In this document: piece after piece, positions 1 through 1,219 of the stretch
Layout: each line of letters begins with the position of its first letter
Numbering within the stretch: position 1 is the first letter of the stretch
Assembly: GCA_905480285.1 (NCBI GenBank)
Contig: CAJQPT010000240.1
Coordinates: 1 to 41,848 of the forward strand
DNA: 41,848 bases
DNA from: an uncultured bacterium
GTDB lineage: Bacteria > Planctomycetota > UBA1135 > GCA-002686595
Direction: 5' to 3'
Program-made: the position numbers and the translations under genes
Notes under the pieces: model-generated
Seen by the model: only the letters and a program-made list of their open reading frames with translations
Told to the model about the DNA's origin: nothing
Databases searched by the model: none

Positions 1-280
1 CCAGCTCGGACATCCGGGCGTGCTCGGTGCGCACGCGGCCTTGAAAGGGCTCGAGACGCTCCCGCGCGATGGACAGGATCTCGGGATCCTGGTCCACCCC
101 TAGGAGGCATAGGCGCGGGAAGCGCTCGAGCAGGAGTGCTGAGTGCCCCCCGGCACCCAGCGTCGCATCCACCAGCAGGCCACAAAGGGAGTCGTTATCG
201 CGTCTACCCCCCAGCAGACGCATGACTTCCTGGGCCAGCACGGGGATGTGCACGTGTCCGTCACTTGTGGGGTCCGTCAT
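1..280 (-). CDS. rsmH: 16S rRNA (cytosine(1402)-N(4))-methyltransferase RsmH, N-terminal part
   Basis: Only the first 93 codons lie in the window; the gene runs off the left edge. RsmH uses S-adenosylmethionine to methylate N4 of C1402 in 16S rRNA. The start (ATG at 278-280) is followed by HVHIPVLAQEVMRLL, the usual family opening. Next comes DATLGAGGHS, the SAM-binding glycine loop, and then LGVDQDPEIL, where the acidic end of strand 2 contacts the ribose. It lies 71 bp downstream of mraZ on the same strand, the classical first pair of the dcw (division and cell wall) cluster. No clear Shine-Dalgarno sequence precedes the start, so translation may depend on mraZ readthrough. Identification is secure from these motifs plus context; the C-terminal half cannot be checked. 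Confidence 0.93.
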   Translation of the reverse strand, partial: MTDPTSDGHVHIPVLAQEVMRLLGGRRDNDSLCGLLVDATLGAGGHSALLLERFPRLCLLGVDQDPEILSIARERLEPFQGRVRTEHARMSEL

Positions 281-351: not shown

Positions 352-828
352 TCACGCCTGGACCTCCGGGTCGCCGGCGTGGTGGAGCGGTGACTTGGCG
401 CCGCGGTGGCGATCGCCCCAGCGGTCCCTGGACCAGATCTCGGCGCGGCTGCGCATGCCGACCGCGACGACCTCGTCGCCGATCCCGGCGATCTCCCTGA
501 AGCGCGCCGGCAGCACGAGGCGGCCGGAGGTGTCGAGCGTGAACTCCGCGACGAACTCGAAGAAGTCCCGCTGGCTGTCGAGGTCGGCCGCGCCCTCCGA
601 GGCGAAGGCGCCGGTGCCGAACCCCTCCATCTCCTGATCGAAGCCCTCATCGTTGAAGACCCAGATGCAGCGGCCGTGGGAGGGCTCGAGGCACATCACG
701 CCGTAGGGGCGGTTCTCCTCGTCGCGGTCGAGAGCGTCCTGGAAACGCTTCGCGAAGGACATGCGGCCCTTCTTGTCGACCGTGTGCTCGGACGGCCCAA
801 GGAAGCGCCTTCGGCGGGCGGGGGTCAT
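352..828 (-). CDS. mraZ: Transcriptional regulator MraZ
   Basis: 158 residues, close to the family's usual 140-155. MraZ is a double AbrB-like-fold DNA-binding protein that assembles into rings and represses its own dcw operon. The first half carries SEHTVDKKGRMSFAKRF near residue 15. The second carries FTLDTSGRLVLPARF near residue 100, the D-x-x-GR-x-x-x-P signature; in the first repeat the usual Pro is Ala. An in-frame opening extends 30 codons upstream, but I chose the ATG at 826-828. It has GGAGG seven bases ahead, and the upstream sequence holds the repeated operator-like boxes at 843-897. rsmH follows on the same strand. Function is secure; autoregulation is inferred from the boxes. Confidence 0.93.
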   Translation of the reverse strand: MTPARRRRFLGPSEHTVDKKGRMSFAKRFQDALDRDEENRPYGVMCLEPSHGRCIWVFNDEGFDQEMEGFGTGAFASEGAADLDSQRDFFEFVAEFTLDTSGRLVLPARFREIAGIGDEVVAVGMRSRAEIWSRDRWGDRHRGAKSPLHHAGDPEVQA

Positions 829-842
829 CGGATGACCTCCAC

Positions 843-897
843 TGCCAGTTGCTGCCTTTCTATGCCATCCTGTGCCACCCGGGTAGCTTGCAGTGCC
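843..897 (-). promoter_or_regulatory. Probable MraZ operator (10-bp-phased TGGCA boxes)
   Basis: Read on the minus strand, the boxes TGGCA, TGGCA, TGGCA, AGGCA and TGGCA occupy plus-strand positions 893-897, 873-877, 863-867, 853-857 and 843-847. They sit in exact 10-bp register, with one register (883-887) unoccupied. The last box ends about 14 bp before the mraZ start. Known MraZ operators are direct repeats of a short G-rich box at about 10-bp spacing just upstream of mraZ (TGGGN in E. coli). Phase and place match; the box sequence is a variant. No convincing -35/-10 pair was found upstream. Confidence 0.7.
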
Positions 898-1219
898 ACC
901 TCGATCTACACAAGGCACCCCTCCAGCAAAGTCGATGGGTTTCTAAGCCAAGCCCTGACAAACACTTAGGCCGCAAGCGCACAATCAGCCGCGAGGCACA
1001 AGATGATGTGTCCTTAATGTCCGGCGAGCCCTACCAACGCTAGATGTAGTGCCCCTCGGCGGCGGGCCACCACAACTGGCGCGGTCGCATGTCGCGCCCC
1101 GCGTCCCCTGCGGCCGGTGGATCTCCCCCATGCCACTCCATGCCACCGCGCGATCGAACGCCCCCTCGGCGCCTCGGCAGTCCCGAAGGTCGCGCCATCG
1201 GATCGCCCCACTCCCGGGG

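Follow-up and report, generated by a model that had tools for sequence, protein, structure and literature searches.

The window analysed here, a stretch of 41,848 nucleotides from an uncultured planctomycete, carries close to its beginning a gene pair read on the minus strand, mraZ and directly after it rsmH, preceded by a promoter-like region with five short boxes. The features of this locus, given in the direction of reading, are as follows:

908–913, minus strand: predicted -35 element, TTGTGT, upstream of box A and separated from the -10 element by 17 bp
894–898, minus strand: box A, TGGCA, between the -35 and -10 elements, at a step of 21 bp from box B
885–890, minus strand: predicted -10 element, CAAGCT, between box A and box B, which are 21 bp apart
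873–877, minus strand: box B, TGGCA, offset 0, at about the predicted transcription start
863–867, minus strand: box C, TGGCA, +10 from box B
853–857, minus strand: box D, AGGCA, +20 from box B
843–847, minus strand: box E, TGGCA, at an offset of +30; a regular feature in the window's genus only
836–840, minus strand: Shine-Dalgarno sequence, GGAGG, from the sequence
828–826, minus strand: start codon of mraZ, ATG
352–828, minus strand: mraZ, 158 amino acids, two MraZ domains (Pfam PF02381, E 2.6e-16, in two stretches)
2–280, minus strand: 5' part of rsmH (mraW), the next gene, which runs off the contig (Pfam PF01795, E 2.2e-17)

The first-pass annotation had described five boxes in a single 10-bp register, ending 14 bp before the mraZ start. 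Read on the minus strand, the four boxes at 843, 853, 863 and 873 do follow each other in steps of exactly 10 bp, and 14 bases indeed separate the ATG (828–826) from the nearest of them. The far box had been placed at 893, where the sequence (893–897) reads GTGCC; it is the TGCCA at 894–898 that gives TGGCA on the minus strand. Its step is therefore 21 bp and not 20, so that the common register holds for four boxes (843–877) and is left by the fifth. Four direct repeats at 10-bp phase thus stand upstream of mraZ, where at least three are expected of a MraZ operator. On the minus strand of the window, [TA]GGCA boxes spaced by 10 bp form one four-box row and two three-box rows, neither of which arose in 300 windows simulated by a first-order Markov model; two-box rows were seen 4 times against 0.11 expected per window under the same model, and three TGGCA boxes with at most 2 mismatches gave 2 matches against 0.05 expected. 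The search for further rows that had been proposed was run on the window's own genome (4.5 Mb, 84% complete): three WGGCA boxes with at most 1 mismatch were found at the mraZ site only, and the reversed-pattern control gave 0. Between mraZ and the next upstream gene, the window is of low complexity at 1390–1430 and 1555–1650, with repeated TCTGGCGCGC and TCAGCCG units.

The mraZ product has the marks of a MraZ protein in sequence, genomic place and fold. The PF02381 match scores 59.8 bits against a cut-off of 23, and each of the two domains carries the DxxxR motif, which we take to be the DNA-binding motif of MraZ: D11, R15, D92 and R96 are invariant in an alignment of 69 rows, and in the window's genus the DxKxR of domain 1 is intact, K13 included. 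The structural model (pLDDT 90.1) matched 16 chains at E ≤ 0.001, all of them MraZ entries; these include 1n0e, 9sz7 and 9r4j, of which the latter two are, to go by the structure titles, MraZ complexes with promoter DNA, 9sz7 with a four-box promoter.

We compared the sequences upstream of mraZ at 91 loci from this order: 9 from the window's genus, 57 from other loci of its family and 23 from other families, the remaining 2 being second-MraZ loci that were set aside. In the alignment of related planctomycetes, which had been suggested as a check, the phase is kept in 9/9 species of the genus. Over the 57 other family loci, TGG pairs are enriched at distances of 10, 20, 21, 31 and 41 bp (104, 52, 43, 54 and 52 pairs, respectively, against 5 to 7 at those distances in shuffles of these loci). 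A row test that used boxes B, C and D only, leaving position -21 unused, recognized a three-box 10-bp row in 53 of 64 family loci (the 57 plus 7 fetched later), compared to 3.3% of shuffled sequences. TGG stands at -21 in 34 of these 53 rows, at -31 in 10 and at any other place in at most 4; by contrast, it stands at -21 in 4 of 20 rows from other families of the order (37 loci, one genome counted twice), and in 7 of 47 rows from other orders of the phylum, where -20 is occupied in 6 of 47 (67 loci). Since the -21 TGG is common in the family rows and rarer elsewhere, box A at -21 is mainly a feature of the window's family. The family layout is box A, 21 bp, box B, 10 bp, box C, 10 bp, box D; the -10 element falls between A and B, and the -35 element precedes A. 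A coding origin of the repeat was discarded: a step of 10 bp is not divisible by 3, and the stretch from box A to the gene is interrupted by in-frame stops in 4/9 genus loci and 38/57 other loci.

The promoter elements are conserved along with the boxes. An A at -12 together with a T at -8 is present in 9/9 genus operators and, among 34 clean family operators, in 17; another 9 of these have the same pair one base upstream, and other places account for at most 4. TTG at -36 is found in 8/9 genus and 21/34 clean family operators. Set against the conserved -35/-10 pair, box A falls between the two elements, box B coincides with the expected start and boxes C to E belong to the leader. The seemingly missing box slot between A and B is, as judged from this alignment, the -10 element, and by the same placement the operator would overlap the start region of the promoter, the transcription start being deduced to lie near box B.

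MraZ is among the most widespread regulators of bacterial division, and the site that it binds is as a rule defined by a core of GTG. Boxes C, D and E of the genus do not answer to this description: box C reads GGCA in 9/9 genus loci and GTGG in 1/9, against 10/57 and 42/57 in the other family loci, box D reads GGCA in 9/9 and GTGG in 1/9, against 13/57 and 48/57, and box E, with GG in 9/9 genus loci and 6/57 others, reads GTGG in 0/9. Boxes A and B retain GTGG in the genus (7/9 and 9/9, respectively), and the TGG of box B is present in 9/9 genus and 42/57 other family loci. As the core shared by the genus boxes is GGCA and not GTG, we file the operator as a variant. In five separate lineages of the genus, the majority letter is found on average in 4.69 of 5 at the GGCA columns and in 2.87 of 5 at the spacer columns, and a row whose GGCA columns are kept while its spacers are not is not a copied tandem repeat. 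The genus is nevertheless a single clade, in which 5 of the 9 MraZ proteins are near copies, so its change of word counts as one event.

The first-pass annotation had seen in TGGCA a lineage-specific MraZ recognition sequence. The word of the genus is lineage-specific and its phase conserved (9/9), but TGGCA as such is not unique to the genus: GTGGCA boxes occur in other genera of the family, above all in the sisters g18 and g29, where most boxes read GTGGCA or ATGGCA and E reads GGGGCA or CGGGCG; several GTGGCA boxes are also found in some other genera (e.g. g6, g7 and g9). What sets the genus apart, on the aligned operators, is that C, D and E have lost their GTG part and that a fourth downstream box is regularly present. 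In a MraZ tree built on 84 of 91 rows and few columns, the genus is supported at 100 and its stem measures 0.9 changes per column, with g18 and g29 as sisters (support 85). This suggests the order GTGGNG, GTGGCA, GGCA; given the GTGGCA boxes of g6, g7, g9 and others, the first step may have been taken more than once. On the protein side, M16, beside DxKxR, is found in 8/8 genus rows against 0/61 others, and position 19 is A or S in 8/8 genus rows against 2/61, with P in 59/61 others. Hypothetically, these substitutions caused the change of word, but neither of them was required for the first step, TGGCA being frequent in genera with V16 or L16 and P19, and genus MraZ also differs from the others at many columns outside the recognition loop, which makes the link between the word and particular residues weak.

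A second MraZ gene is present away from mraZ–rsmH in 9/9 genus genomes and also in genera g3, g5, g17, g19, g21, g22 and g40. In the window's genome it lies outside the window, at L124:5140-5664 (G000:C276:8139-8663), with a gene for a YNCE-like beta-propeller protein directly downstream on the same strand (L124:3807-5075); the two possibly form an operon. The upstream regions of second-MraZ genes (28 loci, one too short to count) contain TGG pairs at 11 bp: 37 against 2.4 in the genus and, over the 18 loci from other genera, 36 against 3.5. Three TGG in a row at this step were seen in 6/9 genus and 5/18 other loci, compared to none and one locus, respectively, at 10 bp. The best TGG step in the genus is 11 bp in 6/9, with 2 ties and 13 bp in 1, and in the other genera 11 bp in 9/18, with 5 ties, 10 bp in 2, 13 bp in 1 and 9 bp in 1; the genus rows often show an 8-bp step at GTAT. 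According to the excerpts of PMC5282649 that we consulted, MraZ can bind a GTG pair spaced by 11 bp in vitro, namely the (GTGTTAN5)2 site of the controller protein HsdC. That site resembles the second-MraZ arrays in its GTG direct repeats 11 bp apart, but HsdC is a C-protein of restriction-modification systems and not a MraZ (PMC5282649). With such a pair bound by MraZ, it is plausible, by analogy, that the 11-bp TGG arrays are MraZ sites.

Taken with the genes that it precedes, the 843–898 region is very probably a MraZ autorepressor operator-promoter of mraZ–rsmH, extending from -20 to +35, with a lineage-specific GGCA box. The reading that competes best, though we hold it improbable, is that another DNA-binding protein reads the genus boxes and that MraZ is now a passenger. 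The fast evolution of genus MraZ (the stem of 0.9 changes per column) and the paralogue in all nine genomes would fit it; against this, the 10-bp register of the family is kept around the same -10 element while word and MraZ change together, the paralogue has 11-bp TGG rows of its own upstream, and DxKxR is intact. We think it very improbable that the boxes work at the level of the leader RNA, or by forming a G-quadruplex, instead of as protein sites. Boxes B to E would be transcribed and G-runs recur, and excerpts of one report describe a G-quadruplex downstream of the mraZ promoter in Staphylococcus aureus (PMC11796246). However, box A lies upstream of the start, nearly all genus boxes hold GG pairs only, and neither leader RNA nor quadruplex needs an exact 10-bp phase; a structured leader was also rejected on its folding, which is unremarkable (z -1.23; 25 of 200 shuffles fold equally well). 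TGGCA is also the usual -24 element of sigma-54 promoters, and the TGGCAC at box A resembles the -24 consensus, but we give hardly any credence to the boxes being such elements of RpoN promoters: TGG followed by 10 bases and GC occurs in 0/9 genus operators, as does TGGCA with TTGC at 5–8 bases, which rules out this promoter type on spacing, and a -35/-10 pair is conserved instead. Finally, chance or a functionless small tandem duplication, although slippage can yield repeats, is ruled out for practical purposes by the conservation of the boxes and not of the spacers in five lineages and by the absence of any such row from the 300 simulated windows.

The MraZ operator proposed here is of a kind already known; what changed in the genus, as far as alignments tell, is the DNA word and the layout, together with the protein. 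In Escherichia coli, the mraZ operator is said, after Eraso (2014), to consist of TGGGN boxes, and the sequence upstream of the gene reads TGGGA, TGGGG and TGGGA at 10 bp, behind TAAACT at -14 to -9. Common to both are the 10-bp direct repeats, the first box right behind the -10 element and the order mraZ, rsmH, whereas E. coli has three boxes, no TGG at -21 and the word TGGG in place of GGCA. In Burkholderia cenocepacia, as related in excerpts of PMC7761207, PmraBc comprises four 7-nt repeats with 3-nt spacers, to which MraZ binding was shown by gel shift. Its repeat row likewise lies downstream of the -10 element and over the start site, but it is defined by a conserved GTG motif, which is almost lost in C and D of the genus, and the excerpts describe no upstream box in the spacer such as box A (PMC7761207). 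The mollicute site is given as (AAAGTGKN3)3, with MraZ as a repressor, in excerpts of PMC5282649 and PMC8475190; it shares the 10-bp direct repeats at the mraZ promoter, and a mollicute complex has, by its title, been solved with a four-box promoter. Of the mollicute core AAAGTG so given, the genus has lost the GTG half in C to E and keeps the 3' half of the box, GGCA. A search of open papers by title and start of abstract found none on MraZ boxes in planctomycetes.

By analogy with these systems, MraZ is likely to act in this lineage by start-site occlusion. With TTGTGT and CAAGCT, 17 bp apart, as its promoter elements, RNA polymerase would start near box B; MraZ would sit on box A, between these two elements, as well as on boxes B to E, which span about +1 to +35, and in this position would cover the -10 element and the start site, thus repressing the operon and its own synthesis. 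Here MraZ probably lowers the expression of the cell-wall and division gene cluster to which it belongs, as it is described to do in E. coli and Mycoplasma genitalium in excerpts of PMC8475190. The A-21-B layout around the -10 element makes this a concrete occlusion model. As to its history, recognition would have shifted towards the 3' part of the ancestral box, from a GTGG(N)G core to GGCA: the first step, GTGGCA, would date from the common ancestor with g18 and g29, and the second, in the genus alone, would have combined the loss of GTG in C to E with the substitutions next to the DxKxR of domain 1. That regulator and operator changed their recognition code together in such steps (GTGGNG, GTGGCA, GGCA), and that the two MraZ paralogues are insulated by word and helical phase, is a possibility that we put forward tentatively, as somewhat doubtful. 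No second MraZ was seen in g18 and g29, although both have GTGGCA, which makes it less likely that insulation first gave rise to the GGCA word. Core word, box number and the recognition segment of the protein changed within one clade whose intermediates survive, so that the recognition code could be tested by swapping few residues and boxes.

The genus also raises the question of what MraZ controls without a Z-ring, the switch being strongly conserved without FtsZ. FtsZ_C had no match in 9/9 genus genomes, while the control matched in 13/14; mraZ, rsmH and the operator are kept all the same. The absence of FtsZ from Planctomycetota is already known, as stated in excerpts of PMC12283558. A wider regulon of GGCA rows was rejected: away from mraZ in the 9 genomes, three DGGCA boxes with at most 1 mismatch were not generally more frequent than the reversed pattern, and G108 has a near row that falls within a long open frame. 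In one species only, a perfect TGGCA-TGGCA-GGGCA row at 10 bp stands shortly before a probable gene start (L257:1035-1059, G137:C91:8634).
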